Assembly (NCBI GenBank): GCA_018333535.1
Contig: JAGXTA010000004.1
Span: 1 to 40,008, forward strand
From: Deltaproteobacteria bacterium
GTDB taxonomy: Bacteria > Desulfobacterota > BSN033 > UBA1163
Length of the DNA: 40,008 nt
Direction of reading: 5' to 3'
Part shown: piece after piece, positions 3,726 to 39,451 of the stretch
Numbering within the stretch: the first letter of the stretch is position 1
How the letters are laid out: each line of letters begins with the position of its first letter
Program-made: the position numbers and the translations under genes
The notes under the pieces: generated by a model
The model's input: only the letters and a program-made list of their open reading frames with translations
What the model was told of the DNA's origin: nothing
Database searches by the model: none

Positions 3726-4376
3726 ATGCTCGTGACAGACAACCAAACGGAATTAAGCGCCTTGATGGCTGAACTTCAAGAGGAGGCCGTATTGAACCTG
3801 GTCCGGCAATGCCTCGCCGATGGTGTTGACCCTTTGGTTATCATCGATCTCTGCCATAAAGGCATGATCCAGGTGGGAGAGTACTACGAACAGGGACATT
3901 ACTTTATATCGGGGTTAATCATGGCTGGCGAGATCATGCACCAGGTTGGTCAACTGGTATTTCCCCTTCTCGCAAGCAGGATCACAAATGGTGATTCCGG
4001 CACGATTGTCCTGGGTACGGTTGAAGGAGATATCCACTTTGTCGGTAAGGATATCTTCAAATTTCTTGTCCGTGTACACGGGTTTACCGTGCATGATCTT
4101 GGGGTAGATGTTCCGCCGAGTCAATTCCTTGCAGCGATTCATGAATTCAAGCCCAACATTGTTGGGCTTTCCTGCCTGATCAGCACGGTGTTCAAGTCCT
4201 TGCGAGAAACAGTAGCATTCTTGAAAAAAAATATCCCTCAGTATATGTCACCTCCTGCATATGTGATCGGCGGTCGGGTTGACGAGATCGTATGCAAGGA
4301 CGTAGGAGCGGATTACTGGACAAACGATGGCATGAAGGGGGTTCGTTTATGCCAAAAGATTATGGGCAAGAGCTGA
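3726..4376 (+). CDS. Corrinoid (B12-binding) methyl-carrier protein, MtaC/MtbC-like
   Basis: This 216-aa protein has the two-domain build of methyltransferase corrinoid proteins. A helical B12-binding-2 cap covers residues about 5-90, and a Rossmann-like cobalamin domain follows. The cobalt-ligating motif DxHxxG is present as D102-I-H104-F-V-G107, followed by GLSCLIS near 147 and the GGR loop near 182. Such proteins carry a methyl group on cobalamin between a substrate-specific methyltransferase (MtaB/MttB type) and an MtaA-type or folate-specific methyltransferase. No substrate methyltransferase lies beside it. The upstream gene is a GntR regulator, and the convergent neighbour 8 bases away is MtaA-like. 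The methyl donor cannot be told. Confidence 0.88.
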   Translation: MLVTDNQTELSALMAELQEEAVLNLVRQCLADGVDPLVIIDLCHKGMIQVGEYYEQGHYFISGLIMAGEIMHQVGQLVFPLLASRITNGDSGTIVLGTVEGDIHFVGKDIFKFLVRVHGFTVHDLGVDVPPSQFLAAIHEFKPNIVGLSCLISTVFKSLRETVAFLKKNIPQYMSPPAYVIGGRVDEIVCKDVGADYWTNDGMKGVRLCQKIMGKS

Positions 4377-19333: not shown

Positions 19334-20785
19334 TTACATCAATCCTGCGATCGACTTCTGGGCAAAGGAGAGGACATTCGAAGGAAAGATTCCCATGTAG
19401 AAGGTTCCGATCAGGGCCAAAATCAATGCGATCACCGGCGCCGGTGAAAACTGGAGGCCTGTGATTTCCCGCTCCGATTCCCTGAAATACATCAATACCG
19501 TCACCCGCAGATAGTAGTAAACGGAGATGGCGCTGTTGAGTACGCCGAGAATGGCCAGCCAGTAAAATTTCGCTTCCACCGCCGCACTGAAAATATAGAA
19601 TTTAGCCATGAATCCACCCAGGGGAGGAATGCCTGCCATCGAGAGAAGGAAGATGGTCATCGAGGCAGCCAGAAGGGGATACTTGAAACCCACTCCCGCA
19701 TAATCAGTGACCAGGATGTTCTCCTCGCCTTTCTTGCCGAGAAGGATCACGCAGGTGAAAGCCCCCAGGTTCATAAAGGCATAAGCCATGAGGTAGAAGA
19801 GAATTCCGGAGGTTCCTGACTTGTTGCCGGCGACAAAGGCCACGAGGATATATCCGGCATGGGCAATGCTCGAATAGGCTAACATCCTCTTGATGTTGTT
19901 CTGGGAGATGGCGATGATGTTTCCGACGGTCATGGTCACAACCGCGATGAGCCACATGATCGAGGTCCAGTCCGGACGGAATTCCGGAAGAGCGGTGAAG
20001 AAGACTCGGATCAGGGCGGCAAAGCCTGCGGCCTTCACGCCCGTTGCCATAAAGGCGGTGATCGAAGTCGGAGCTCCTTCATAAACATCGGGCGTCCACA
20101 TATGAAAAGGAACAGAGGCGATCTTGAAGCCAAAGCCAATGGTGAGAAAGGCCAGGCTCATCAGAAGCATCGGATTATCAAGAAGTTTTTTCGAGGCGAT
20201 GTAAGAGGCGATATCCTTCAGATAGAGGGAGCCTGTGGCCCCGTAGAGGAAAGCGATTCCATAGAGGAGAAAACCGGTGGCAAAGGCGCCCAGCAGGAAG
20301 TATTTGAAAGCCGACTCCACCGACTTCCGGTCCTCCCTCAGCATTCCGGCCAGGATGTAAATGGAGATGGACATTGTCTCCAGGCCGAGGAAGATGACGA
20401 TCAGATGGGTGCCGGAAGCCATGAGCATCATCCCGAGCGTGGCAAAAAGGATGAGGGCATAGTATTCTCCGAACCCGATCCCTTCCCTCGTAGCATAGCC
20501 CATCGAGATCAGGACGGTCAGAAAAGCGATGATGAGGATCGTGATCTTGAAGAAGATGGCAAATCCGTCCGAGGTAAACATCCCTTCAAACCCGGTCTTG
20601 GCCGCCCCCGCCAGAGGAAGGGTGTAAAAGAAGGCGATGACCACGCCGATCAGACTGAGGACTCCGAGATATCCCTTCTTCTCCCCTTTGGGCGCAAAGA
20701 CGTCAACGAGAAGAACTAAAAACCCAAAGGCGGCGATGATGATTTCCGGCGCAATGAGATAGAGATCAATATCTGGCAGTTTCAT
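19334..20785 (-). CDS. nuoN: NADH-quinone oxidoreductase subunit N
   Basis: A 483-aa antiporter-like membrane subunit, last gene of the nuo operon. It has about 14 membrane helices. The family features are GLETMSISIYILAGMLRED with its conserved Glu, the broken-helix lysine region FGFKIASVPFHMWTPDVYEGAP, and NIKRMLAYSSIAHAGYI. NuoN is one of three subunits with proton half-channels linked to quinone chemistry in complex I. The length is normal, and the gene follows nuoM at a spacing of about 107 bases. Confidence 0.95.
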   Translation of the reverse strand: MKLPDIDLYLIAPEIIIAAFGFLVLLVDVFAPKGEKKGYLGVLSLIGVVIAFFYTLPLAGAAKTGFEGMFTSDGFAIFFKITILIIAFLTVLISMGYATREGIGFGEYYALILFATLGMMLMASGTHLIVIFLGLETMSISIYILAGMLREDRKSVESAFKYFLLGAFATGFLLYGIAFLYGATGSLYLKDIASYIASKKLLDNPMLLMSLAFLTIGFGFKIASVPFHMWTPDVYEGAPTSITAFMATGVKAAGFAALIRVFFTALPEFRPDWTSIMWLIAVVTMTVGNIIAISQNNIKRMLAYSSIAHAGYILVAFVAGNKSGTSGILFYLMAYAFMNLGAFTCVILLGKKGEENILVTDYAGVGFKYPLLAASMTIFLLSMAGIPPLGGFMAKFYIFSAAVEAKFYWLAILGVLNSAISVYYYLRVTVLMYFRESEREITGLQFSPAPVIALILALIGTFYMGIFPSNVLSFAQKSIAGLM

Positions 20786-20891
20786 TTAAAAGCCTCCAAA
20801 TTCCTTTAAAAAATGATGAGGGGATAGGGTGATTGGGAGATGGGGTGAGGTTTATGCCTTTTTCTCCCCATCCCCCTAACTCTTTATCTCC

Positions 20892-22436
<1,545 letters not shown>

Positions 22437-22471
22437 GAGTTTTAACTCCTTTAACTTAAAATCCCCCCTCA

Positions 22472-22492
22472 CCCCCCTTTATTAAAGGGGGG
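22472..22492. repeat. Perfect palindrome CCCCCCTTTA-T-TAAAGGGGGG
   Basis: A 10-base perfect stem with a single central base between nuoL and nuoM. It is related to the hairpin at 8972-8995. It lies inside an operon and is not followed by a T-run, so it is more likely a dispersed repeat or an mRNA processing/stability element than a terminator. Confidence 0.65.
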
Positions 22493-22502
22493 ATTTGAGG
22501 AT

Positions 22503-24476
22503 TTACAAGAAGGCCCGCATGATATAGTAGACGGCCAGGATTAGTCCGCCGAGAACGATCGAAAAGGCGTAGTTCTGAACAAATCCTGTCTGCATCTTCC
22601 TCATCACGCCGGACAGCCATCCGATGAAATAGGCAATGCCATTGACCGTTCCATCGATCACAAACTCATCGAACCCCTTCCAGAGCCCTGTGCCCAGTCT
22701 CTTCAGGGAGTTGACGAAGAGGAACTGGTAGAGTTCGTCCACATAATATTTATTGGAGACCAGTCGATACAGCCCGCTCCATTTCTCAGTCAGCATCCTG
22801 GGTAGGGCCGGGTTCTTCAAATATAAAAAGTAGGCGATTCCAATCCCGATGAGGGCGATCACTACGGAGCCGGCCATCAGAAAAAGTTCCAGAGCGGCGG
22901 AATGGCCCCCTGCCCCTCCTCCTGCGGCCCAGGCTTCGGAGATGAGAGAGAATATGGCCTGGGCTTTTACAGGCTCAGCGCTTCCGCCCACCACCGGCGC
23001 CAGGAATTCATGGATGTGGTTGGCTCCGCCTAAGACATGGGGAACACCTACATAACCTCCCACGATGGAGAGAAAGGCCAGGACCATCAAAGGAACGGTC
23101 ATGACCTTCGGCGATTCATGGATATGGTGCGCTACATGGTGATCCACCCTCGACTCTCCGAAAAAGGTCATAAAGAGCGCCCTGAACATATAGAACGCCG
23201 TCATCCCCGCGGCTATGGCAGCCACCAGCCAGAGCAGGAAATGTCCGCGTCCGCTGGAGAAGGCCATCCAGAGGATTTCGTCCTTGCTGAAAAATCCCGA
23301 GAGGCCGGGCACGCCCGCGATCGCCAGCGTGGCGATGAAGAAGGTTCCAAAGGTGATGGGAATCTTCTTTCTCAGGGCTCCCATCTTCCTGATATCGAGC
23401 TCTCCGCTCAGGGCGTGCATCACGCTTCCCGCCCCGAGAAAGAGGAGCCCCTTGAAAAAGGCATGGGTCATGAGGTGAAAGATCCCTGCCGCATACGCTC
23501 CCACACCCACGGCAACAAACATGTACCCGAGTTGGCTGATCGTCGAATAAGCCAGGATTTTTTTGATATCGTACTGGCAGAAACCAATGGAGGCCGTAAA
23601 GATGGCGGTGGCCACGCCCACAATCGCCACAACCGCCATGGCAATGGGCGCCATGTTGTAGAGGACATTGCACCGGGCGACCATATAGACGCCTGCCGTC
23701 ACCATGGTGGCCGCATGGATCAAGGAGCTGACCGGTGTGGGACCTTCCATTGCATCCGGAAGCCAGACATAGAGGGGAATCTGCGCCGATTTTCCGCAGG
23801 CGCCGACAAAGAACAGGAGCGCGATGGCAGTGGCGGTCGTTGTGTCGAGTTTGTTGGCGGTGGTGAAGGCCTCAGTGAAATCAAGCGTCCCCAGGTTGAT
23901 GAAGAGGAGGAACATTCCCAGGATGAAACCGAAATCGCCCACCCGGTTGACGATAAAAGCCTTCTTTCCCGCATTGGCCGCAGAATCCTTCTCATACCAG
24001 AAACCGATCAGAAGATAAGAGCAGAGGCCCACGCCCTCCCAACCTACAAACATTAGAAGGAAGTTGTTGGCCAGGATGAGGTTGAGCATCATGAAGACGA
24101 AGAGGTTGAGATAGGTGAAAAATCGAGTAAAACCTGGGTCGTCATGCATATATCCCACGGAGTAAATATGGATGAAGAAACTCACTCCGGTCACGACCAG
24201 GGCCATGAGGATGGAAAGGGGATCGATCTGATAACCGATCACGGTCTGGAAAGAGCCTGAAACGATCCAGTCGAAGATCACCTTCTCGAAGAGCCTCTCT
24301 GTTGGAGGAAGCTTTATCAGTTCTAAAAAGATGAGGACGGAGGTGAGAAAGGAGAGCCCGATCGCGGAGGGGCCCACCACGCTGACCACGCCCTTTCCCA
24401 GACGCTTCCCCAATAACCCGTTGATCAAAAATCCGATGGCAGGAAATAGAGGGATTAACCACACCTTGTCAAGCAT
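22503..24476 (-). CDS. nuoL: NADH-quinone oxidoreductase subunit L
   Basis: A 657-aa membrane subunit at the distal end of complex I, with about 16 helices and the long amphipathic C-terminal helix. Family motifs include FVGWEGVGLCSYLLIGFWY, the GKSAQIPLYVWLPDAMEGPTPVSSLIHAATMVTAG block, DIKKILAYSTISQLGYM and HLMTHAFFKGLLFLGAG. The final region (NKYYVDELYQFLFVNSLKRLG and what follows) is the usual NuoL tail. The length is within the normal range. Proton pumping is the known family role. Confidence 0.95.
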   Translation of the reverse strand: MLDKVWLIPLFPAIGFLINGLLGKRLGKGVVSVVGPSAIGLSFLTSVLIFLELIKLPPTERLFEKVIFDWIVSGSFQTVIGYQIDPLSILMALVVTGVSFFIHIYSVGYMHDDPGFTRFFTYLNLFVFMMLNLILANNFLLMFVGWEGVGLCSYLLIGFWYEKDSAANAGKKAFIVNRVGDFGFILGMFLLFINLGTLDFTEAFTTANKLDTTTATAIALLFFVGACGKSAQIPLYVWLPDAMEGPTPVSSLIHAATMVTAGVYMVARCNVLYNMAPIAMAVVAIVGVATAIFTASIGFCQYDIKKILAYSTISQLGYMFVAVGVGAYAAGIFHLMTHAFFKGLLFLGAGSVMHALSGELDIRKMGALRKKIPITFGTFFIATLAIAGVPGLSGFFSKDEILWMAFSSGRGHFLLWLVAAIAAGMTAFYMFRALFMTFFGESRVDHHVAHHIHESPKVMTVPLMVLAFLSIVGGYVGVPHVLGGANHIHEFLAPVVGGSAEPVKAQAIFSLISEAWAAGGGAGGHSAALELFLMAGSVVIALIGIGIAYFLYLKNPALPRMLTEKWSGLYRLVSNKYYVDELYQFLFVNSLKRLGTGLWKGFDEFVIDGTVNGIAYFIGWLSGVMRKMQTGFVQNYAFSIVLGGLILAVYYIMRAFL

Positions 24477-24504
24477 GAGGAACTCCTTTTGTCATTTCGG
24501 ATTT

Positions 24505-24595
24505 CGCCTGCCCGCCGAACAAGTTCTTTGGCAGGCGGGGAGTGCGGATTTCGGAATTTCACTCCGCATTCTGCACTCCGGATTCCGCATTTGTA
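24505..24595. repeat. GC hairpin plus degenerate repeat tract between nuoK and nuoL
   Basis: CGCCTGCC (24505-24512) pairs with GGCAGGCG (24530-24537). It is followed by a degenerate tract of short units such as GATTTCGGAATTTC, ACTCCGCATTC and ACTCCGGATTCCGCAT. The sequence is non-coding and looks like part of the same intergenic repeat population seen elsewhere in the window. Confidence 0.55.
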
Positions 24596-24913
24596 TCACC
24601 ACTTTAATAGATTGATCTCATCGACATTGATCGTCTCTTTTGAACGATAGAGCATCACAAAGATCGCCAGCCCAACCGCTGCCTCCGCCGCGGCCACGGC
24701 CATCACGAAGAAGACAAAGATCACCCCGTCGATCGATTGGAGAAAGCGGGAAAAGGTGATGAACGTCAAATTGACCGCATTGAGCATCAGCTCGATGCAC
24801 ATAAAGACGACGATCGCATTGCGACGGGTCAACACCCCAATCACACCGATCGTAAAGAGTACTCCACTCAACATAAGATAGAGGGCAGGGGGAATGGTTG
24901 GCACGACCCACAT
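24596..24913 (-). CDS. nuoK: NADH-quinone oxidoreductase subunit K
   Basis: A 105-aa, three-helix membrane subunit. The middle helix motif [25 protein letters not shown] holds the conserved glutamate needed for proton transfer. A second acidic residue lies in the third helix segment ([18 protein letters not shown]). It begins 12 bases after nuoJ. The length is normal. Confidence 0.95.
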
Positions 24914-24925
24914 AATCGATTCTCC

Positions 24926-25453
24926 TTATGTCCTTTTCTTGCTCAAAATCACTGCGCCGATGATGGCAACGGTTAACAGGATGGCCGCAATCTCAAAGGG
25001 AAAAACATAGTCCGTGAAAAGCGCCTCACCCACGGCCTTCACATTGGTGGCCATCTTTTCGGGGGTATAGGAGCCTGTCTGGCCGGTCGGGAATTTGGCC
25101 ACGACGGTGTAAAGGATCCCGAAGAGGAAGAGAACGGCCAGAAACCCTCCGATGACCTTTGAATAGACAATCTTCAGCTTGGAACGGAGCTCCGTCTCCA
25201 GGTCGAGGAGCATGATGACGAAGACGATGAGCATCACGATCGCCCCCGCATAGACGATGACCTGGATGATGGCAATGAACGGGCTGTGGAGCAACACATA
25301 TAGCACGGCCACACAGAGCAGGGTCAGCACCATGAAGAGGGCGCTGTGGATGGGGTTTTTGCGTGTGATGACCAGCAGGGAGGCGACGATCGAGACGAAG
25401 GCTACTCCCAGAAAGATCAACCACTGAAAGAGTATTCCGAAATTTTCAGCCAT
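24926..25453 (-). CDS. nuoJ: NADH-quinone oxidoreductase subunit J
   Basis: A 175-aa membrane subunit with five helices. The TM3 region AIIQVIVYAGAIVMLIVFVIMLLD is typical and includes the flexible segment (YAGAIVML) involved in coupling in complex I. The segment RKNPIHSALFMVLTLLCVAVLYVLL is also family-like. A hydrophilic loop follows helix 4. It follows nuoI after about 200 bases of AT-rich repeat tract, unlike the tight packing elsewhere in the operon. Confidence 0.94.
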   Translation of the reverse strand: MAENFGILFQWLIFLGVAFVSIVASLLVITRKNPIHSALFMVLTLLCVAVLYVLLHSPFIAIIQVIVYAGAIVMLIVFVIMLLDLETELRSKLKIVYSKVIGGFLAVLFLFGILYTVVAKFPTGQTGSYTPEKMATNVKAVGEALFTDYVFPFEIAAILLTVAIIGAVILSKKRT

Positions 25454-25651: not shown

Positions 25652-26065
25652 TTACGGATTATACTTCTTCTCCTCTAAAAGTTTCTCCGTGTTCATGAGA
25701 AAGGGCGTGCGTTCTCTCTCCACCCATTCGTAATTTTTTCCTACGAAGATGGCATTGACCGGGCAGGCCTCTTCACAATAACCGCAGAAGATACATCTCA
25801 GGACATCCAGTTCGTAGGTGAGGGGGTAGCGTTTTCCCTCCTCATCCTCGGCGGTCTCAATGTAGATGCACTGGGAAGGACAGACCGCCATGCAGAGGCC
25901 GCAGGCCACACACTTCGTCTTCCCCTTCTCATCCTTCTCAAAATACTGGATTCCCCTCCAGCGTTTTGCAGGAGGCACCTTTTCTTCCGGATACTGGATG
26001 GTGATCGGCTTGGAGAAGAACCGACCCAATGTAAAGGCCAGACCTTTTAGTAATGGAATGATCAT
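25652..26065 (-). CDS. nuoI: NADH-quinone oxidoreductase subunit I (2x[4Fe-4S])
   Basis: A 137-aa ferredoxin-like subunit carrying clusters N6a and N6b, which pass electrons toward N2 in NuoB. The two motifs are C52-x2-C55-x2-C58-x3-C62 and C91-x2-C94-x2-C97-x3-C101, each followed by Pro. The N-terminal amphipathic region (GLAFTLGRFFSKPITIQYPEEK) matches the family membrane-contact segment. It starts 13 bases after nuoH. All cluster cysteines are standard here, in contrast with NuoB. Confidence 0.95.
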   Translation of the reverse strand: MIIPLLKGLAFTLGRFFSKPITIQYPEEKVPPAKRWRGIQYFEKDEKGKTKCVACGLCMAVCPSQCIYIETAEDEEGKRYPLTYELDVLRCIFCGYCEEACPVNAIFVGKNYEWVERERTPFLMNTEKLLEEKKYNP

Positions 26066-26078
26066 GCGTAACCCCTTA

Positions 26079-27098
26079 TTAACCTTTCAGCAAAACGACC
26101 AAGGCGGTGATAAAGATATTGACGAGAGTCAATTCAAATAAAACCTTCCAACCAAACTTCATGATCTGATCGTAGCGGAGCCTCGGAAAGGTTCCTCTCT
26201 GCCAGATGAAGAAGAAAATCAGCACGAAGACTTTCGCCCCAAACCAGAACACCCCGGGTATGAAATCGAGCTGGGGCAGTGGAGCCTGCCATCCTCCCAG
26301 GAAGAGCGTCACGGCGACAGCAGCTACGGTGATCATATGGGCGTATTCAGCCATGAAGAAGAGGGCAAATTTCATGCTGCTGTATTCGATGTTAAATCCA
26401 CAGGCTAATTCCGACTCCGACTCCGGCATATCAAAGGGGGTCCGGTTAATCTCGGCAAGGGCGCAGATGATGAAAAAGACGAAAGCAGCAGGCTGATACA
26501 AGATGTTCCAGTTCCAGAACCCCCCCGCCTGGAGCGTAACGATCTCTGTTAGCCTGAGGCTCTGAGAGAGAATGATGACTCCGACGATGGAAAGTCCGAG
26601 GGCCACCTCATAACTGATCATCTGAGCCGCCGCCCGAAGCGACCCGGTCAGGCCATATTTATTCCCCGAAGACCAGCCTCCGAGGACGATCCCAAATTCT
26701 CCAAGGGAGGCAATACCAAAAACATAGAGAAGTCCGATGTCAATATCAGCGATTCGCAATTTGACCACCCAATCCGTTCCCGGAATGGTGAACTGGTTTC
26801 CAAAGGGAATCACGGCAAACATGCTGATGGCCGCAATGATAGAGATCATCGGGGCAATGACAAAGACCGCCTTATCCGCGTTCCCCGGAACAAGATCCTC
26901 CTTGAAGAAGGCTTTGATGCCATCCGAAAAGGGCTGAAGCAGTCCGAAGGGACCGCAGCGATTCGGGCCAAAACGGATCTGGATGTGGCCCAGGACCTTC
27001 CGCTCCAGCCAGGTCAGATAGGCCACGGAGAGCATCAGGCAAGCAAAGACCACCACACATTTTACAATTGTCTCAATGAGAAGATATACGACCTGCAT
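26079..27098 (-). CDS. nuoH: NADH-quinone oxidoreductase subunit H
   Basis: A 339-aa membrane subunit that forms the quinone chamber with NuoB and NuoD. Diagnostic segments are WLERKVLGHIQIRFGPNRCGPFGLLQPFSDGIK, the quinone-site loop FGIASLGEFGIVLGGWSSGNKYGLTGSLRAAAQMISYEV shown here by its parts GEFGIVLGGW and SLRAAAQMISYE, and AEINRTPFDMPESESEL. Conserved acidic residues of the E-channel are present. The length and helix count (about eight) are normal. Confidence 0.95.
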   Translation of the reverse strand: MQVVYLLIETIVKCVVVFACLMLSVAYLTWLERKVLGHIQIRFGPNRCGPFGLLQPFSDGIKAFFKEDLVPGNADKAVFVIAPMISIIAAISMFAVIPFGNQFTIPGTDWVVKLRIADIDIGLLYVFGIASLGEFGIVLGGWSSGNKYGLTGSLRAAAQMISYEVALGLSIVGVIILSQSLRLTEIVTLQAGGFWNWNILYQPAAFVFFIICALAEINRTPFDMPESESELACGFNIEYSSMKFALFFMAEYAHMITVAAVAVTLFLGGWQAPLPQLDFIPGVFWFGAKVFVLIFFFIWQRGTFPRLRYDQIMKFGWKVLFELTLVNIFITALVVLLKG

Positions 27099-27250: not shown

Positions 27251-29203
27251 TTAAACCGCAAAGAGCCCTACCCTCACACACCGGAGGCAGCGCTCGGCTT
27301 CCTTCTGTGCGACCGGAATCGAAAACCCTTTCTCCACTTCGTCGAAGATCCACTTTCTTGAATCAGGAGGAAGAAGTTCCAGCATCGCCCTCTTCTGCCC
27401 GCCCGGGTTTCCGATCTTTTCATCCTTGCTGTAAACTTTGATCTTCTCAACCAGGGTCTCCAGCCGTTCGTCCTCGGATTCCTTCACCTCTCTTCCCTGA
27501 ACGAAGGCGTCAATCTTTTCGGCGGCCCTCTTTCCATGGCCCGCCCCCCGGACGAGAACATCCGGACCGATCACACAATCACCCGCAGAGAATATCCCTG
27601 CACGGTTTGTCTGAAATGTTCCTTCCTGCACTGCGATGGTGGAGCGCTTTGTCGTCTTCACCCCGTCCTTTTCGTCGAGGAAGGAGAGGTCGATCGCCTG
27701 GCCAATGGCGGGAATTACGATATCGGCCTCGATGAAAAATTCCGAACCTTTAATCGGGACAGGTCTGCGCCTTCCGCTCTCATCCGGCTCGCCTAATTCC
27801 ATCCGGATACATTCCATGCCGGTCACTTTCCCATCCTTTTCAATGATCCGGACCGGATTGCAGAGGTAATGGAATTTCACGCCCTCCTCTTCGGCATCGT
27901 GGATTTCCACCCGGTCAGCAGGCATCTCTTTTTTCGTCCTCCGATAGACCAGGTTCACATCGGCCTTTCCGATGCGAAAGGAAGAGCGTACGCAGTCAAT
28001 TGCCACATTCCCGCCGCCCACAACCACCACTCTCTTTCCTTCGGGATAGGGGTCTCTTCCAAGATTGATCTCAAGGAGATAATAAACTCCGGGGATGAAC
28101 CCCTTATATCCCTTGTCCTCTCCCTCAACACCCATGGGCGTATTGGTATGGGCCCCCACGCCGATAAAGATGGCTTTGTATCCCTGTTCAAATATCTGGG
28201 AGAGGGTGATATCTTTTCCCACCTGAGTGTTGTAACGGATCTCCGCACCCATCCTTTCCACGAGGCTTGTCTCATATCTTACGATATCCCTCGGGAGCCT
28301 GTAATCCGGAATTCCGACAGCGGCCATTCCTCCCGGCTCCCCCAGCCTCTCAAAGATCGTGACCGGATAACCTTTAAGGCCAAGGTAGTAAGCGCAGGTA
28401 AGGCCGGCGGGACCAGCTCCGATGATGGCCACCCTTTCGGAACGGGTGGGAACCCGGGTTACCTCCGGTTCTCTTCTTTTGTCCAATTCATAATCAGCCA
28501 CAAATCGCTTGAGCCATTTGATGGAGACGCATTCATCCACGTTCTGCCGCCTGCAGTTGTCCTCGCAGGGACGGATGCAGACCCTTCCCAAAACGCCTGC
28601 GAGGCAGGTCGCCTCACGGATGGCGGCGAGCGCGTCTATATACCGGCCTTCCTTGATCAATTCGACATAGCGTGTGATGGGAAGATGCGAAGGGCAAGCG
28701 CTTTCGCACGGAGCGGTCACCTTGACTTTATACTCTTCACGCGGGATCTTCTTCTTTGACTGAATCACTTCGGAAAACTGTGCTTTAAAATGGTCGAGGG
28801 CATGGAGCACGGGTTTGGGCCCGGTCTGTCCTAAATTGCATTTTGAGCTCTTCTCAATCGTCTCGCCTAAATATTTCAACTGGTCTAAGTCCGTTGCTTT
28901 CCCCTGACCCCCTGCAATCCGGTTAAGGATGGATGACATGATCCGCGTTCCCACCCGGCAGGGTGTGCACTTTCCGCACGACTCCTTCTGAACCGCTTCC
29001 ATGTACGCCCGAATCAGATCGATCAAATTGACTTCAGGGTCGCGGATGGCAATCCCGTCCCAACCGATGAAGGCTCTGACCTTCTTCTCCTTGTCAAATT
29101 CAAGAGGAAGATTGAGATTGGGTATGGGCGCCCTCTCTGCTTCCGGTTTTCCCCGGTTATCCACAACCGCTCCACCCCAACTGCTAAAAAGGATGTCTGT
29201 CAT
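27251..29203 (-). CDS. NuoF N3-cluster domain fused to GltD-like FAD/NAD(P)H oxidoreductase
   Basis: A 650-aa protein in the slot normally held by nuoE-nuoF-nuoG. Residues about 60-140 match only the C-terminal iron-sulfur domain of NuoF, with N3 ligands C76-x2-C79-x2-C82 in ESCGKCTPCRVGTR and C122 in KCNLGQ. The NADH/FMN domain of NuoF is missing. Residues about 160-235 are the GltD-type Cys-rich domain (C166, C170, C200, C209, C213, C217). Residues about 255-560 are the FAD/NAD(P)H fold, with GAGPAG at 262-267, GGGN at 397-400 and the closing FSAGDCV near 539. A CLRC motif ends the protein. It may feed NAD(P)H electrons to complex I through FAD and N3. The start at 29203 has AAGGGG seven bases upstream. 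Confidence 0.88.
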   Translation of the reverse strand: MTDILFSSWGGAVVDNRGKPEAERAPIPNLNLPLEFDKEKKVRAFIGWDGIAIRDPEVNLIDLIRAYMEAVQKESCGKCTPCRVGTRIMSSILNRIAGGQGKATDLDQLKYLGETIEKSSKCNLGQTGPKPVLHALDHFKAQFSEVIQSKKKIPREEYKVKVTAPCESACPSHLPITRYVELIKEGRYIDALAAIREATCLAGVLGRVCIRPCEDNCRRQNVDECVSIKWLKRFVADYELDKRREPEVTRVPTRSERVAIIGAGPAGLTCAYYLGLKGYPVTIFERLGEPGGMAAVGIPDYRLPRDIVRYETSLVERMGAEIRYNTQVGKDITLSQIFEQGYKAIFIGVGAHTNTPMGVEGEDKGYKGFIPGVYYLLEINLGRDPYPEGKRVVVVGGGNVAIDCVRSSFRIGKADVNLVYRRTKKEMPADRVEIHDAEEEGVKFHYLCNPVRIIEKDGKVTGMECIRMELGEPDESGRRRPVPIKGSEFFIEADIVIPAIGQAIDLSFLDEKDGVKTTKRSTIAVQEGTFQTNRAGIFSAGDCVIGPDVLVRGAGHGKRAAEKIDAFVQGREVKESEDERLETLVEKIKVYSKDEKIGNPGGQKRAMLELLPPDSRKWIFDEVEKGFSIPVAQKEAERCLRCVRVGLFAV

Positions 29204-29336: not shown

Positions 29337-30509
29337 TTAACGGTCTATCTCTCCCAGCACAATATCGATGCTTCCGATCGTGGCGACCACATCCGCAATC
29401 AAACTTCCCTCGATCATCTTCGGAAGGGCGCTCAGATTGAGGAAAGAGGGAGGCCGGATTCTCACCCTGAAAGGCCGATTCGACCCATCGCTCACCACAT
29501 AGAACCCAAGCTCCCCTTTCGCCGCCTCCACGCTCGCATAGACCTCCCCTTTCGGAGCCTGGAAACCTTCGGAAGCGATCTTGAACTGCCGGATCAGGGA
29601 GGCAATATCCGTGAGAACCATTTCCTTTTCAGGAAGCACGACCTTTGGATCATCCGCAAGGATGGGCCCTTTTGGCAAGCGATCCAATGTCTGTTTCACA
29701 ATCGAGTTTGCCCACTCCATCTCTCTCAACCGGACATAGTACCGGTCATAGACATCGCCCACCGAACCCGTTGGAATATCGAATTCGAAATCTTCATAGC
29801 TCGAATAAGGGAATGCTTTTCTCACATCCCACTTCACTCCGGAGCCGCGAAGCGTCGGACCGGTTACGCCCCAGTTGATCGCATCCTCCTTCGAGATAAT
29901 CCCGACTCCCTTGGTCCGTTTCAGCCAGATCACGTTCTTCGTCAGAAGGGTTTCGTAATCCTTCATATGGCCCGGAAAGGCTTCAACAAACGCTCTGATC
30001 TTCCCTTCGATCCCTTCCGGAAGGTCTTTGGCAACCCCGCCGATTCTCAGGTAGGTCGGAGTCAACCTCCCTCCGGAGACCTCTTCAAAAATCCTCAGGA
30101 TATCCTCCCTTTCCCGGAAATTGTAGAAGAGCAGCGTCATGGCGCCGATGTCCAGTGCATGAGTCCCCAGCCAGATGAGATGCGCCGCAATCCTCTGAAG
30201 CTCGGCCATCATCACTCTCAGGTATTGGGCCCTCTTGGGAACCTCAATGCCCAACAGTTTTTCAACGGCCAGAACATAGGCCAAATTATTTCCCATCGCA
30301 TTGGTGTAGTCCAACCGGTCCGTGAGAGGAATGACCTGATGGTAGGTCCTGGCCTCGGCTAATTTTTCAACCCCCCGGTGGAGATGCCCAATATGGGGAG
30401 TTGCCTTTACAATAATTTCTCCATCCAGTTCCAACACAAGCCTCAACACCCCGTGAGTGGCCGGGTGTTGAGGGCCCATGTTGATGGTCATCAATCGTGT
30501 CTCTGCCAT
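29337..30509 (-). CDS. nuoD: NADH-quinone oxidoreductase subunit D
   Basis: A 390-aa peripheral-arm subunit (49-kDa homologue) related to NiFe-hydrogenase large subunits. It forms the quinone headgroup site with NuoB. The N-terminal GPQHPATHGVLRLVLELDGE motif (with the quinone-site His), HIGHLHRGVEKLAE, and the C-terminal region EGSLIADVVATIGSIDIVLGEIDR are typical. The ATG at 30509 is chosen because GAGG lies 6 bases upstream and it begins 1 base after nuoC ends; an earlier in-frame ATG overlaps nuoC. It is a separate gene, not a NuoCD fusion. Confidence 0.95.
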   Translation of the reverse strand: MAETRLMTINMGPQHPATHGVLRLVLELDGEIIVKATPHIGHLHRGVEKLAEARTYHQVIPLTDRLDYTNAMGNNLAYVLAVEKLLGIEVPKRAQYLRVMMAELQRIAAHLIWLGTHALDIGAMTLLFYNFREREDILRIFEEVSGGRLTPTYLRIGGVAKDLPEGIEGKIRAFVEAFPGHMKDYETLLTKNVIWLKRTKGVGIISKEDAINWGVTGPTLRGSGVKWDVRKAFPYSSYEDFEFDIPTGSVGDVYDRYYVRLREMEWANSIVKQTLDRLPKGPILADDPKVVLPEKEMVLTDIASLIRQFKIASEGFQAPKGEVYASVEAAKGELGFYVVSDGSNRPFRVRIRPPSFLNLSALPKMIEGSLIADVVATIGSIDIVLGEIDR

Positions 30510-30510
30510 T

Positions 30511-30999
30511 TCAGACCTCGGGGACAAAGGGTTTGTCAAAATCCGGTCCTTCGACCGGGAAATCTTTTCTCAGGGGATAGCCTTCGTAGCCATCCCAGAG
30601 GAGTATTCTCCTCAGATCCGGATGTTTCTCGAAGGGGATTCCGAAGAGGTCATAGACCTCCCTCTCAAGCCAGTTGGCCGACTTCCAGATCGATTCAACG
30701 CTCGCCACTGATTCAGCTTCTCCGACCTTCGCCTTCAGTCTCAATCGATCATTGGTCTTGAACGAGTAAAGGAGATAGACTACCTCAAACCTGGGGCTTT
30801 GGGGAAAATGGTCCACCCCGCAGAGGTCGGTGAGCATATGGTACTGGAGATCGGGGTCGGCATAGAGAAATCGGCAAATCTCAAAGATATCCTTCTTCGG
30901 CACAGCCACACTGACTTCCCCCCTAAAGGTCGTCGTCTCTATTGCCGAAGAGCGAAATTTTCCCTGAATTTTTTTTACGGCAGGATGAACTTCAGTCAT
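30511..30999 (-). CDS. nuoC: NADH-quinone oxidoreductase subunit C
   Basis: A 162-aa peripheral-arm subunit (30-kDa homologue). It has the family segments HMLTDLCGVDHFP, RFEVVYLLYSF and WLEREVYDLFGIPFEKHPDLRRILL, ending GYPLRKDFP. The ATG at 30999 follows the nuoB stop by 1 base with AAAGGA upstream; a start six codons earlier is possible. NuoC helps hold NuoB, NuoD and NuoI together. Confidence 0.94.
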   Translation of the reverse strand: MTEVHPAVKKIQGKFRSSAIETTTFRGEVSVAVPKKDIFEICRFLYADPDLQYHMLTDLCGVDHFPQSPRFEVVYLLYSFKTNDRLRLKAKVGEAESVASVESIWKSANWLEREVYDLFGIPFEKHPDLRRILLWDGYEGYPLRKDFPVEGPDFDKPFVPEV

Positions 31000-31000
31000 A

Positions 31001-31522
31001 TCATTCCATCCTTTCATCAGTCTCTTCCCTGATCAGCCGGACATTCTTCCGATCCGCAAGGGTCTCCTTCTCGATCTTCTTCTGAAGCGTTAAGATCGCC
31101 GTAAGGAGCGTTTCCGGTCTGGGCGGACAACCCGGCACATAGACATCCACCGGTAGAATCTGATCCACGCCCTGGACGACACTATATGTCTTAAAAATCC
31201 CGCCCGAGCAGGCGCAGGCCCCATACGCGATGACCCATTTGGGCTCCGGCATCTGTTCATAGATGCGTTTGACCATGGGAGCCATCTTCTTGGTCAGCGT
31301 TCCCGCCACAATCATCAGATCCGCCTGCCGTGGAGACGGCCTGAAAACCTCTGAACCGAATCTCGAAATATCCCACGTCGCCGAACTGGTGACGATCATC
31401 TCCAGAGCGCATCAGGCAAGGCCGAAGGTGACCGGCCAGATCGAATACTTCCGGCCCCAGTTGACCACCTTATCGAGGACCGGCATCAAAGGTGTTTTTT
31501 CAAGGTAGGTTTCTATTCCCAT
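31001..31522 (-). CDS. nuoB: NADH-quinone oxidoreductase subunit B with in-frame UGA at the N2-cluster cysteine (candidate selenoprotein)
   Basis: Translation from ATG 31522 (GGAG upstream, 10-base overlap with nuoA) gives [20 protein letters not shown], then [16 protein letters not shown], a UGA codon at 31414-31412 (residue 37), then [14 protein letters not shown] and the rest of a normal NuoB. Most NuoB proteins read GLACCAxEM or GLGCC here. The two adjacent cysteines ligate cluster N2, and the first is the UGA. Other N2 ligands are present (C104 in GACACSG and C134 in VPGCPPRP). The whole product would be 173 aa, normal for NuoB. A frame opening at 31399 would lack the first 41 residues, including this ligand, and could not make N2. 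Read-through as selenocysteine is the best explanation; a TGC-to-TGA error or mutation is the alternative. Confidence 0.85.
31376..31414 (-). promoter_or_regulatory. Candidate bacterial SECIS of nuoB
   Basis: After the UGA (31414-31412) comes a hairpin. CGUCACC (31394-31388) pairs with GGCGACG (31382-31376) with one A-C mismatch, closing a five-base loop AGUUC (31387-31383). The loop starts 24 bases after the UGA and has a G in its second position, which fits the general bacterial SECIS pattern. It is weaker than the fdhA element, and this part of nuoB is also constrained by its protein sequence. Confidence 0.5.
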
Positions 31523-31872
31523 TCCAGCGCTCCTTTTTTCCAGACATAGATATAGGCAATGATGAGAATCCCGACGAATATAGACATTGAAATAAAGCCG
31601 AAGATCTTTAATTCCTTAAAGACCACTGCCCACGGATAGAGGAAAACGATTTCGATATCAAAAATCAGGAAAAGCATGGCGATGATGTAGTACTTGATCG
31701 AGATCCTGCGGAAAGAGGAACCGTAAGTGGTCATGCCGCATTCGAAAGGCGCTTCCTTGATGAGCGTCTGTTTTCTCTGGCCCAGAAGATAGGAGGCGGT
31801 AATGGCAAAACAGGCAAAGATGACGGCAATGGCGAAATAAAAAAGGATGGGAAAATAATCGATCAGCATCAT
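31513..31872 (-). CDS. nuoA: NADH-quinone oxidoreductase subunit A
   Basis: A 119-aa, three-helix membrane subunit and first gene of the nuo operon. The loop segment KEAPFECGMTTYGSSFRRISIKYYIIAMLFLIFDIEIVFLYPWA is the NuoA signature, seen here as KEAPFECGM and FLIFDIEIVFLYPWA. AAGGGGGG lies just before the ATG at 31872 (ATG-ATG, so one codon later is also possible). The last 10 bases overlap nuoB. Confidence 0.94.
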   Translation of the reverse strand: MMLIDYFPILFYFAIAVIFACFAITASYLLGQRKQTLIKEAPFECGMTTYGSSFRRISIKYYIIAMLFLIFDIEIVFLYPWAVVFKELKIFGFISMSIFVGILIIAYIYVWKKGALEWE

Positions 31873-32122: not shown

Positions 32123-34795
32123 TTACCCGCTAAATTTCTCTACTCGCACTGTTGAAAATTTCAAATCCGGAATCTTCGATTCAGGGTCAAGCACCGTATT
32201 GGTAAGAAGATTGACAGGAGCTTCTGCAAAGTGAAATTTGGCAAAGACCACCCCACTTGATACCTTATCCGTAATCTTCACCTTTGAAACAAAATCACCC
32301 CTCCTGCTCACAATCCTCGCCTGGTCCCCTTCTTTGATTCCAAGCTTATCTGCATCGGATGGGTTTATCTCCACAAGGCTTTCAGGGCACATCTCATTGA
32401 GGAGCCGGACTTTTCTGGTCATGCTGCCCGCATGATAATGGTAATAATCCCTCCCTGTGCTCAGAATAAACGGGTAATCCTTGTCCGGCACTTCAGGGGG
32501 AGGAGTATAATCGACAGGGACAAAGAGTCCTTTCCCCCTTACAATCTTACCCTTATGCAGGATAGGCGTTCCCGGATGATTCGTATCCGGGCATGGCCAC
32601 TGGATGCCTCCGGATTCCAGTCGTGAATAGGTGATGCCGGCATACTGTGGAGTCACCTTCCTGATCTCCTCGAAGATCTCCTCCGGACCTCCATAATTCA
32701 TCGGATATCCAAATGTTGAGGAGAGGTCACAGATGATCTCCCAGTCTGCTCTGGCTCCCTCCGGTCCATTGAGCGCCTTTCTCACCCTCTGAACCCTCCT
32801 TTCGGTGTTGACAAAGGCGCCGTCCTTTTCAAGGAAGCTCAGAGACGGAAGGACGACATGGGCGACCTGGGCTGATTCGGTGAGAAAGATATCCTGAACC
32901 ACAAGCAGTTCCAACTTGGCATAGGCTTTTTTCAGGTGAGAAAGGTCAGGATCCGTAACCATAGGATTTTCACCCATGATATAGACGGCTTTAATCTTTC
33001 CCTCATAAGCCGCCTCGCTCATTTCGACCACAGTCAATCCCGGCTTCTCTGAGAGAGAAACTCCCCAGTGGCTTTCAAATTTATCCCTTAATTCCTTTAG
33101 AGCCACTCCCTGGTATCCCGGATAGACGGTTGGCAGGCAGCCCATATCACAGGCGCCCTGCACATTATTCTGGCCTCTAAGAGGATTGACGCCGCTACCC
33201 GGTTTTCCCAACTGGCCGCAGAGGAGGGCAAGGTTTGAGATCGCCTTAACCCCATCCGTTCCTTTTGAGTGCTGGGTGATCCCCATGCAGTAAAGGATGG
33301 CCGCATTTTTGGCCGAGCCATACATCCGCGCCGCTTTGATCAACTGATCTTTTGGAATTCCGGTGATCTTCTCCACAAACTCAGGAGTGTAGCGGGAAAC
33401 CCTCTCCTTTACGGCCTCAAAACTCTCTGTATGCTGGTCGATAAATGGTTTATTATAGAGGTTTTCTTTGATGATGATGTGGGCCAATCCATTTAACCAC
33501 GCAATGTCGTCTCCGGGCTTGGGTTGAAGCCAGAGGTCAGCCTCTTCCACCAGATCGATCTTTCTCGGATCGACGACGATGATCTTGGCGCCATGGAAAC
33601 GGGCGCGATTCCTCAGCAACATTCCGATGACAGGATGGGTTTCAGTGGTGTTGCTCCCGGTCACCAGAAGGACATCTGCTTCCTTCAAATCAGCGATGGA
33701 ATTGGTCATGGCTCCGGAGCCCAGTGTGGTGGCCAGACCGACCACCGTGCTGGAGTGTCAGAGACGGGCGCAATGATCGATATTGTTCGTTCCGATGGCC
33801 GCCCTGATGAATTTCTGAAAAAGATAGTTCTCCTCGCAGGTGACCCTTGCGGAGGCAAGACCGGCAATGCTGTCAGGACCATTCTTCTCTTTGATCTCCC
33901 TTAGCTTCCTCGAAACATAGGTCAAGGCCTCATCCCAGCTCGCCTCTCTCAACTTGCCATTGTCTCTGATCAAGGGGGTGCGGAGCCTTTCCGGGCTATT
34001 TACAAATTCATAACCGAACCTTCCCTTTACGCAGAGGACTCCATTATTTGTCCCCAGGCCTTCTTTTGTGGTGACTTTGATCATCCGGTTTCCGACCACA
34101 TTCGCTTCGAGATTACAACCCACCCCGCAATAGCCGCATACGGTAGAAACCCGCTTCGTTTGCCAGATCCTTCCTTTGATCGAGCTGACATTCTCTGTGA
34201 GGGCTCCAACCGGACATGCGGCCAGACATTCGCCGCAGGAGATACATCTTTCGGGTTTTACGGCCTCGACTCGCGTATCAAAACCGGTCTCCTTAAGATC
34301 GAGGACCTCCCTGCCCACGATTTCTCTGCAGGTCCGGATGCATCGACTGCAGAGAATACAGCGGTTCGGATGATACTTGATGGCAGGCGTGGAATAGGTC
34401 TTATACTCTTTGACCGGTGCATCGACCTGATAATCCGCCTTTTGAATCCCATATTCATAGACATAATCCTGAAGATCACATTCTCCTCCCTTGTCACAGA
34501 CCGGACAATCGAGGGGATGCTTCACCAGCATGAACTGCAGGACTTCCTTTCTTATCTCCCGAATCTTCGCGGTATCGGTTTCGATCACCATGCCATCAAG
34601 GGCCTGTGTGTTGCAAGCGGTGACAGGGTTTTCAAGACCCTGAACCTCCACCACACACATCCTGCAGAAGCCCGTTGGAATAAGGCTCTCCATGTGGCAC
34701 AGCGTTGGGATGCGGAAACCGTTCTGATGGGCAATCTCAAGAATGGTTGCGCCTTCTTCTGTCTCAATAGCTCTGCCGTTGATGGTCATTCTCAT
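32123..34795 (-). CDS. fdhA: Selenocysteine-containing formate dehydrogenase alpha subunit with NuoG-like N-terminus
   Basis: One 890-aa protein, read through an in-frame UGA at 33760-33758 (residue 346). Around it the protein reads NNIDHCARL-Sec-HSSTVVGLATTLGSGAM, the standard formate dehydrogenase active-site context. Domains: NuoG-type [2Fe-2S] (C33, C44, C47, C61), His-Cys [4Fe-4S] (H93, C97, C100, C106), two ferredoxin clusters (C146/149/152/156 and C184/187/190/194), then the molybdopterin domain with its [4Fe-4S] (C220, C223, C227, C255), Sec346-His347, and a C-terminal cofactor-binding region near 775-880. It oxidises formate or reduces CO2. No NAD-binding beta or gamma subunit gene is adjacent. 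It lies directly upstream of a complex I that lacks nuoG. Confidence 0.95.
33721..33760 (-). promoter_or_regulatory. Bacterial SECIS element of fdhA with its UGA codon
   Basis: The UGA at 33760-33758 is followed by a strong hairpin. GGUGGUC (33746-33740) pairs fully with GGCCACC (33734-33728) around the loop GGUCU (33739-33735). A lower stem CCAG/CUGG (33753-33750 with 33724-33721) adds to it. The loop GGU starts 18 bases after the UGA, the same distance as in E. coli fdhF, and GGU is the SelB contact in that element. Confidence 0.92.
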
Positions 34796-35010: not shown

Positions 35011-35874
35011 ATGGTTAGGCCACTGAGGATTCAATACGCGGGGGCAGTGTACCATATCACCTCCAGAGGGAATGCAAGGAAGGCCATCTTCAAGGATGAT
35101 AGAGACCGGAAGGTATTCCTCAATATTGTGGAGGAGGTCAAGGATCGATATCATTGGCTCTGTCATGCCTATTGTCTTATGGACAATCATTATCATCTTG
35201 TTATTGAGACCCAGGATGGGAATCTTTCAAAGGGGATGCGACAATTAAACGGTGTCTATACCATTCGTTTTAATAAACGGCATAATACCGTAGGGCATGT
35301 CTTTCAGGGAAGATACAAGGCCATTCTTGTGCAAAAAGAGACTCATTTGCTTGAGGTCTGCCGATATGTGACGCTGAATCCTGTCCGGGCCAAAGTAGTT
35401 GAGTCCCCTGAGCGATGGAGATGGAGCAGTTACCGGGGTATGGCAGGGATAGAGAAGCCTCATCCTTGCCTTACAACAGAGTGGCTGTTGGAGCAATTCG
35501 CCTCAGGGAGAAGGGAAGCCGAGAGAAAGTATAGAGGATTTGTGCATAATGGGATAAGTGAGCGAACCATATGGGATGATATTAAAGGCCAGAGTATCCT
35601 TGGGGAAGAAGATTTTGTGGATCAATTGATTGATTATGTGAGAGGATGTGAGGAGTCAAAGGAGATTCCGAAAGGCCAGAGATATATGAACAGGCCAAGT
35701 CTTGGAGATATTTTTAAGGATACAAAAGGAGAAAGAGGTAAAAGAAATAGAGGGATTGCGGATGCAGTTGATCGCTGGGGGTATAGTCAAAAAGAGGTGG
35801 CTGATCATTTAGGGCTACATTATTCTACCGTAAGCAGGTTGATTAACGAGAGAAACTTAAAATATCAAGATTAA
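35011..35874 (+). CDS. REP-associated tyrosine transposase (RAYT, Y1/HUH family)
   Basis: A 287-aa protein with an HUH single-strand transposase domain (residues about 5-130). The metal-binding pair H60-Y-H62 lies in MDNHYHLVIE, and the catalytic tyrosine is probably Y119 in CRYVTLNPVRA. FQGRYKAILV between them is also typical. The C-terminal part (about 225-285) ends in a helix-turn-helix (YSQKEVADHLGLHYSTVSRLINERN) that could recognise the target hairpins. RAYTs act on short palindromic repeats. It is an intact gene flanked by inverted repeats and starts at the ATG at 35011. Confidence 0.9.
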   Translation: MVRPLRIQYAGAVYHITSRGNARKAIFKDDRDRKVFLNIVEEVKDRYHWLCHAYCLMDNHYHLVIETQDGNLSKGMRQLNGVYTIRFNKRHNTVGHVFQGRYKAILVQKETHLLEVCRYVTLNPVRAKVVESPERWRWSSYRGMAGIEKPHPCLTTEWLLEQFASGRREAERKYRGFVHNGISERTIWDDIKGQSILGEEDFVDQLIDYVRGCEESKEIPKGQRYMNRPSLGDIFKDTKGERGKRNRGIADAVDRWGYSQKEVADHLGLHYSTVSRLINERNLKYQD

Positions 35875-38215: not shown

Positions 38216-39451
38216 TCAGGCTGCTTTTTGAAAGGGTTCGAGAATGACCTTGAACCCCAGGCTCTCTAATCGCCTGATGTGATGGTTCTTAATATGAGTT
38301 ACGTTTACTTGATCGAAGTAATTGGTACCCAGTTCATGATAAGGTACTTCGTCTTTCAAAACGTGATAGACGATTACAACAAGCGAGTGGACCAGGGCCA
38401 CAATAGCCTTTTTCTTTCCTCGTCGAGGCACCAATCGGTGATACAAAGAATTCAAATAGGTATCTTTGGTTCGAGTTACCGCCCAGCCCCCTTCCAGCAA
38501 GACCCTGAACAACCATCGATCCCCCCGACGAGTTTTGCCGCTCTTGTGCTTCCCTGCGCTCTCATTGTTGCCCGGACAGACGCCTGCCCAGGAGGCCAAA
38601 TGGCGATGGGTTGCGAAGCGGTTCATATCTACCCCAATCTCAGCCACGATCGCCTCAGCCACCCTCTGATCCACTCCGGGAATCGTCTTCAGAAGATCGA
38701 CCTGCTTCGAAAAAGGGGCGATCTGATTCTCCACCTCCTTACTGAGTTGCTCAATCGCTTCGTCCAGGTAGTCCACATGCGAGAGAATTTGCCTCAACAG
38801 AAAGCCATGATGGGGACGAAAACGCCCCTTCAATGCCTCCCTCAAGAGAGAGAGTTTCTTGCGCAACTTCCCTCGGGCCAACTCTGCCAGCACTTCTGGA
38901 TCCGTTCCCCCCGAAGTCAGCGATTCCAACATCGCTCGACCCGAAACGCCCATCACATCGGTCGCCACCGAGGAAAGCTTGATGTTGGCCGATTCCAACA
39001 GCTTGTGCAACCGATTCACCTCCCTGACTCGTTCATCGGTCAAGGACTTGCGATACCGCGTCAGGTCTCGAAGATCCCGAATGGGTTCAGGAGGAATAAA
39101 ACTTCCCTTGAGCAGACCATGGCAAAGCAGATTGGCAATCCACTCACAGTCTTTCACATCGGTCTTACGTCCCGGCACAGCCTTAATGTGGGCGGCATTG
39201 ACCAACAAGACCTCAAAATTTCCTTCCAGCAAATTGAAGATCGGCTTCCAGTAAACCCCGGTGCTCTCCATCGCGACATGCGTGACCTTATGGGTCAAAA
39301 GCCAATCGTGAAGCATGAGAAGCTCAAAGGTCATCGTCCCGAACGTTCGAATCTCTTTTGTAAGTTTCCCCTCCTCCCAAATCAATACGCAAGCCACAAC
39401 GATCTTTTTGTGAACATCCAACCCGCAGCACCGTCTGTAAATAACCTCCAT
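38216..39451 (-). CDS. IS110 family transposase
   Basis: A 411-aa transposase of the DEDD type. The RuvC-like acidic residues are D12 in GLDVHKK, E62 in AMESTGVYWKP, and D98 and D101 in KTDVKDCEW. A coiled linker is followed by the Tnp_20 domain (about 250-340) with the helix-hairpin-helix LLKTIPGVDQRVAEAIVAEIG and the catalytic serine S298 in NNESAGKHKSG. IS110 enzymes recombine DNA using a structured guide (bridge) RNA. AAAGGAG precedes the ATG at 39451. The gene is intact. Confidence 0.93.
   Translation of the reverse strand: MEVIYRRCCGLDVHKKIVVACVLIWEEGKLTKEIRTFGTMTFELLMLHDWLLTHKVTHVAMESTGVYWKPIFNLLEGNFEVLLVNAAHIKAVPGRKTDVKDCEWIANLLCHGLLKGSFIPPEPIRDLRDLTRYRKSLTDERVREVNRLHKLLESANIKLSSVATDVMGVSGRAMLESLTSGGTDPEVLAELARGKLRKKLSLLREALKGRFRPHHGFLLRQILSHVDYLDEAIEQLSKEVENQIAPFSKQVDLLKTIPGVDQRVAEAIVAEIGVDMNRFATHRHLASWAGVCPGNNESAGKHKSGKTRRGDRWLFRVLLEGGWAVTRTKDTYLNSLYHRLVPRRGKKKAIVALVHSLVVIVYHVLKDEVPYHELGTNYFDQVNVTHIKNHHIRRLESLGFKVILEPFQKAA

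Follow-up and report, generated by a model that had tools for sequence, protein, structure and literature searches.

Cluster N2 of complex I donates electrons to quinone; its strained ligation by tandem cysteines is unusual, and its potential is pH-dependent. In Y. lipolytica, C85, the equivalent of the residue replaced in the operon described below, has been described as the more mobile ligand, adjacent to a quinone-binding tyrosine (PMC8042128). The 14-subunit complex I shares NuoA–D, NuoH–N, NuoI, the N2 site and the operon order with our locus. Unlike it, our operon lacks NuoE and the FMN/NADH domain of NuoF, appears to have NuoG replaced by a selenocysteine (Sec) formate dehydrogenase, and would carry Sec at an N2 ligand. 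The 11-subunit complex I-like enzymes, e.g. of Desulfitobacterium, likewise comprise the core without NuoEFG (PMC11238625), whereas the operon studied here encodes a dedicated replacement input module.

Two further groups of enzymes resemble that module. In Moorella thermoacetica, sfrB2 encodes the beta subunit of an NADPH-dependent formate dehydrogenase (PMC13040438); this subunit contains a NuoF-type [4Fe-4S] domain followed by a GltD-type FAD/NADP unit (PMC5736913). For SfrAB of Geobacter sulfurreducens, a connection to acetate metabolism and to the regeneration of NADP has been drawn (PMC13186404). Both share the domain content of our fusion subunit, with an Fe–S cluster domain and an NADP-binding unit, and have an FdhA or SfrA partner (PMC13040438, PMC5736913, PMC7483475); these enzymes are soluble, in contrast to our gene, which lies inside a nuo operon where nuoEFG would be expected. 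In the StnABC/NfnABC transhydrogenases (8oh5, 9bov, 9n5u), the closest structural matches to the fusion, a GltD-like NADPH unit feeds NuoG-like clusters, but there the NuoG-like subunit itself contains GltD as a fused part, NuoE/NuoF-like subunits are present and there is no membrane arm.

Here we describe a 40,008-nt stretch of DNA (hereafter the window; assembly GCA_018333535.1, contig JAGXTA010000004.1), a single contig from the metagenome-assembled genome (4.4 Mb, 97% complete) of an uncultured, anaerobic member of the Desulfobacterota. An earlier reading of the sequence (the original prediction) had proposed that its nuo operon lacked nuoE, nuoG and the FMN/NADH part of nuoF, and that a gene joining the N3 domain of NuoF to a GltD-type unit provided a different electron-input module.

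Operon layout and the fusion subunit

The operon lies on the minus strand in the order nuoABCD-fusion-HIJKLMN (Table 1), contains the complete quinone/proton core of complex I (NuoA–D and NuoH–N) and is the only nuo operon of the genome, in which NuoD has a single copy. As predicted, the NuoE and NuoF NADH/FMN module (PF01257, PF01512) was not found within it. Elsewhere in the genome there are five NuoE/NuoF-type pairs, the occurrence of which, together with nuoG, the original prediction had named as evidence against itself; they count against it only in part, as all five are HydB-type (NuoF of 597–658 aa), none accompanies a nuo operon, and they sit in other catabolic clusters, with flanks that resemble CODH/ACS, FdhA, Etf and pyruvate oxidoreductase regions (ORFs judged by eye). 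Five pairs of NuoE and long NuoF suggest many soluble NAD-linked modules. Transposase-like genes of the IS200/Y1 type (35011–35874, plus strand) and the IS110 type (38216–39451, minus strand) stand beside the operon, and at 3726–4376 (plus strand) the window encodes a B12-binding-domain protein, possibly a corrinoid protein, adjoining a GntR regulator.

Table 1. Features of the nuo operon and its upstream formate dehydrogenase gene, with positions in the window.
Feature	Position	Strand	Basis
FdhA, 890 aa, Sec346 (UGA read through), NuoG-like N-terminal Fe–S domains	32123..34795	-	TIGR01591 and NuoG scores
UGA read as Sec346 of FdhA	33758..33760	-	Rfam SECIS_3 over 33705–33763, 32.1 bits, E 1.7e-4, below gathering score
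NuoA	31513..31872	-	PF00507
NuoB, full length 173 aa, putative Sec37	31001..31522	-	nuoB_fam 235 bits; phylum survey
UGA at first tandem N2 cysteine of NuoB	31412..31414	-	Alignment to 2fug chain 6; UGA/Cys exchange
SECIS-like hairpin 3' of NuoB UGA	31376..31394	-	Synonymous-shuffle control; pair counts
NuoC	30511..31017	-	PF00329
NuoD, only genome copy	29337..30539	-	PF00346
SfrB-type fusion, 650 aa from ATG	27251..29203	-	Pfam; invariant Cys; AlphaFold model; structural matches
N3 [4Fe-4S] domain of fusion, residues 62–144, Cys76/79/82/122	28772..29020	-	PF10589 (62–144, 1.1e-27)
GltD-like Fer4_20, FAD and NADP(H) unit of fusion, residues 163–571	27491..28717	-	PF14691 Fer4_20 (163–242, 5e-20); PF07992 Pyr_redox_2 (257–548, 6e-31); matches 5jca, 8oh5
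C-terminal CxxC of fusion, Cys639 and Cys642, putative ligands	27278..27289	-	Invariant in 39 homologues
NuoH	26079..27098	-	PF00146
NuoI	25652..26065	-	TIGR01971
NuoJ, K, L, M, N	19334..25453	-	ORFs; assigned by sequence and order conserved in relatives

The gene between nuoD and nuoH does join the N3 domain of NuoF to a GltD-type unit, with successive matches to PF10589, PF14691 and PF07992. It is not a new protein design: judged by its domains it corresponds to SfrB, which serves the NADPH-dependent formate dehydrogenase of Moorella as its beta subunit. What is new is the placement of an SfrB-type protein as a probable input of complex I. The four cysteines originally assigned to N3 (Cys76, Cys79, Cys82 and Cys122) are invariant in 39 homologues, as are Cys166/170, Cys209/213/217 and Cys639/642 and the GGGNVA and YRR nucleotide-binding motifs. 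Among curated NCBIfam models the protein reaches no cut-off, the nearest being GltD-like families. An AlphaFold model built from 31 homologues (pLDDT 91, pTM 0.89) matches 9bov, 8oh5, 5jca and other structures over its GltD part with Z-scores of 41–50 (about 50 for NfnABC/StnC), in a comparison that spans mainly residues 162–650, the N3 domain being identified by sequence only. A search for solved relatives found no structure with the same domain order, as the best ones cover the GltD part (NfnABC, StnC) or the N3 part (HydB, NuoF) alone.

The prediction of a complete GltD-type Fe–S unit held for its FAD/NAD(P) portion, while the Fe–S portion is doubtful: judged against the ligands of dihydropyrimidine dehydrogenase, the distal GltD cluster seems to lack two N-terminal cysteines, the place of which may be taken by the C-terminal CxxC. 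The GGGNVA/YRR motif agrees with structures of NADPH-binding homologues, and the subunit probably uses NADPH.

The fusion gene also occurs in the nuo operons of about nine related families, most commonly in the order nuoABCD, fusion, a NuoG/SfrA-like gene, nuoHIJKLMN. Because the order nuoD, fusion, (nuoG-like), nuoH recurs across these families, the fusion gene is no assembly accident, and the place of nuoEFG is taken by a flavin/NADP(H) unit joined to N3, in keeping with the different input module foreseen.

A candidate replacement for NuoG

The absence of nuoG, in contrast, did not stand. An fdhA gene that ORF callers split at its Sec UGA codon lies directly upstream of nuoA and, with codon 346 read through, yields a full-length formate dehydrogenase alpha subunit that scores 873 bits against TIGR01591 (cut-off 666) and 420 bits against NuoG. 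It keeps all NuoG-type cluster cysteines as well as the active site, with U346-H347 and the catalytic arginine (PLRGQNN), and we therefore dropped the reading of NuoG as missing in favour of FdhA filling its role. The simplest reading of the sequences is that NuoG has been replaced rather than lost, with FdhA as the candidate.

Comparison with relatives sets this candidate in context. In the window's genus, the gene at the nuoG position is gone and FdhA directly precedes nuoA with a gap of 60–250 bp (genomes with a readable stretch). The subunit at the nuoG position varies elsewhere: in two families (four loci) it is an active Sec formate dehydrogenase, and in most others the Fe–S cysteines are kept and the catalytic residues lost. 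Sister genera have a non-catalytic homologue of this kind after the fusion, whose best match in our genome is FdhA at 45% identity, and also a shorter Sec-FdhA, apparently without the N-terminal Fe–S domains, about 0.3–4 kb upstream of nuoA. FdhA is a replacement at best, given that it stands upstream of nuoA and not in the nuoG slot, and that the tree does not place it as the sister of the degenerate proteins found at the nuoG position in its own family. Since the partner is a Sec formate dehydrogenase, formate/CO2 may be a second input. One relative has two Sec-FdhA genes near its nuo operon, one of them adjoining an open frame of 1042 aa with a match to the fusion.

Proposed complex and its alternatives

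We consider it likely that the operon encodes a NuoABCDHIJKLMN proton pump whose usual NuoEFG has given way to a relative of the Moorella NADPH-dependent formate dehydrogenase, namely the SfrB-type fusion and FdhA, and we have about the same confidence that these two subunits belong to the membrane complex. From the sequences we infer a single complex in which NADPH would pass a hydride to the FAD of the fusion, and electrons would then move through the GltD clusters to N3, on to the NuoG-like Fe–S clusters of FdhA, and via NuoI and N2 to quinone, driving proton translocation. FdhA would feed in electrons from formate or give them to CO2, such that formate, NADPH, quinone and the proton gradient could all be connected through the complex, and either direction may be possible in an anaerobe. 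The structure of StnC, where electrons from NADPH and FAD reach NuoG-like clusters by way of two GltD clusters (PMC10482914), provides a fair model for this path, in which N3 would be the point of entry into the NuoG-like subunit. Of the originally proposed entry by FAD, perhaps from NADPH, and then N3, the entry fits the nucleotide motif, while the path has been revised to include Sec-FdhA as partner.

Gene order alone is no proof of docking, because the known SfrB-type partners are soluble enzymes, and a separate, soluble NADPH-dependent formate dehydrogenase, merely co-transcribed with an 11-subunit complex I that takes electrons from ferredoxin or another donor, is the most probable alternative. 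It draws support from homologous pairs of SfrB-type protein and Sec-FdhA that stand alone, outside nuo operons and resembling the Moorella enzyme, at two loci elsewhere in the phylum, and from the existence of 11-subunit forms, as two operons keep Sec-NuoB without any input genes. We nevertheless regard it as unlikely, as the fusion is placed exactly between nuoD and nuoH in about nine families, its NuoG-like partner is often catalytically dead, a state that would serve no purpose if the enzyme were a soluble formate dehydrogenase, and N3 and the NuoG-type clusters are retained.

Rather less probable still is an enzyme that is essentially an NADPH:quinone oxidoreductase, with FdhA unrelated to it and the NuoG slot empty in this genus. 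The variable gap between fdhA and nuoA would suit such an enzyme, as would the shorter, more distant Sec-FdhA of sister genera. However, N3 would then have no route to NuoI for want of a NuoG-like subunit, and it is in the window's genus, where the internal partner has vanished with no other copy in the genome, that the upstream FdhA has a full NuoG-like N-terminus. A single complex of pump, fusion and FdhA remains the reading we prefer.

A probable selenocysteine codon at an N2 ligand of NuoB

NuoB has its true start at the ATG at 31522, overlapping the end of nuoA, and its frame runs through a single TGA at codon 37 (FGLA-U-CALEM), which the original prediction had overlooked. ORF callers begin at 31399, at a methionine just past the UGA, and the resulting truncated protein lacks about 41 residues including the first N2 ligands, which is why Sec-NuoB is easily overlooked. 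Codon 37 aligns with Cys45 of Thermus Nqo6 (2fug chain 6), the first of the two tandem N2 cysteines; in the same alignment the four ligand positions correspond to putative Sec37, to Cys38 and to cysteines within the GACACSGG and VPGCPPRP motifs, and N2 would accordingly be a [4Fe-4S] cluster held by Sec37 and three cysteines.

The codon is exchanged with cysteine among close relatives, reading TGA in 15 and TGC or TGT in 6 of 21 related loci. A scan of 84,980 species genomes (GTDB) for the motif with TGA gave 83 matches, and 79 of the 80 inspected were true NuoB, the other being a chance match to the pattern. Together, Desulfobacterota and Nitrospirota contain over 80 species with UGA-NuoB, among them an isolate, Thermodesulfatator autotrophicus S606. 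In samples of the two phyla, 25 of 395 Desulfobacterota genomes (leaving out one case with TGA at another position) and at least 19 of 246 Nitrospirota genomes carried a NuoB with one TGA, the position of which was inspected for part of them, and TGA forms were intermixed with Cys forms at 80–90% identity. Counts of Sec-NuoB are lower bounds, because the GTDB pattern missed a group with the motif CALEF (family f26). That family has a fusion-containing nuo operon, with UGA in L193 and Cys in L211; a NuoG-like gene between fusion and nuoH was not seen in L193.

Downstream of the codon, a hairpin 20–38 bases past TGA is specific to the Sec genes: its energy is −9.0 kcal/mol vs −5.96 ± 0.21 kcal/mol for synonymous shuffles with amino acids fixed, and the same stretch of Cys genes has no excess (−5.48 vs −5.68 ± 0.55 kcal/mol). 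Hairpin covariation was 0.357 vs 0.151, a value reached in 0 of 500 shuffles, though such shuffle counts overstate significance as the sequences share ancestry; within the window's group, nine sequences without gaps showed changes on both sides in two of the seven pairs. The hairpin of the window NuoB alone was not significant against dinucleotide shuffles (z −0.17), and an Rfam search called no SECIS at NuoB. In the 20 codons preceding the TGA, most differences are synonymous (63%) and fall on third positions, which shows that this stretch is translated in frame, and purifying selection acts at the protein level on both sides of the UGA. SelB was present in all 20 Sec-NuoB genomes checked, and the window's genome encodes SelB and tRNA-Sec; one relative in which SelB did not exceed the cut-off has Cys-NuoB, and another has TGA-NuoB and SelB only as a fragment at a contig end.

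On these grounds NuoB is very probably a selenoprotein. Sec stands in for Cys in known redox proteins with metal clusters, such as FdhA, [NiFeSe] hydrogenase and HdrA. The majority of carriers are known from metagenome assemblies, yet an error of sequencing or assembly, a pseudogene or a reading as something other than Sec is highly improbable and was rejected, given the same codon, always at a Cys position, in over 80 species from both phyla with an isolate among them, its exchange with Cys, the Sec-specific hairpin, selection on both sides, SelB, and a formate dehydrogenase in the same operon that reads UGA as Sec at a known site.

Sec-NuoB and the SfrB-type input are independent of each other, because Sec-NuoB can accompany the SfrB-type input, classical NuoEFG (two loci in Nitrospirota) or no input genes at all; a tie to the SfrB-type input only is thus ruled out. 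We also considered Sec as a stand-in for a lost redox-Bohr group, a role assigned to the NuoD histidine in RMHPAWFRIGG of E. coli. Threonine occupies this position in the window, and the same holds for nearly all related operons, whether they have Sec or Cys, for which reason the idea was not upheld. NuoB is absent from the selenoprotein catalogues of 2022 (PMC9312934) and 2026 (PMC13188914), whose sole 'NADH:ubiquinone oxidoreductase' entry is NqrE (PF02508), an unrelated subunit of Na+-NQR. A literature search, with most subscription journals outside its reach, found no paper on SfrB in a nuo operon or on Sec in NuoB.

Conclusion

Taken together, our analysis points to a large group of anaerobes that probably have a Sec-ligated N2 in complex I, to which the lineage of the window would add an input of formate and NADPH instead of NADH. 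The exchange of Sec and Cys between close relatives, at one ligand atom of N2, offers a natural test of the effect of this cluster on coupling. From the SfrB/FdhA input it would seem that complex I can have its NADH module exchanged for an enzyme of the NADPH/formate type. This is of relevance to how anaerobes that rely on formate and the Wood–Ljungdahl pathway conserve energy.
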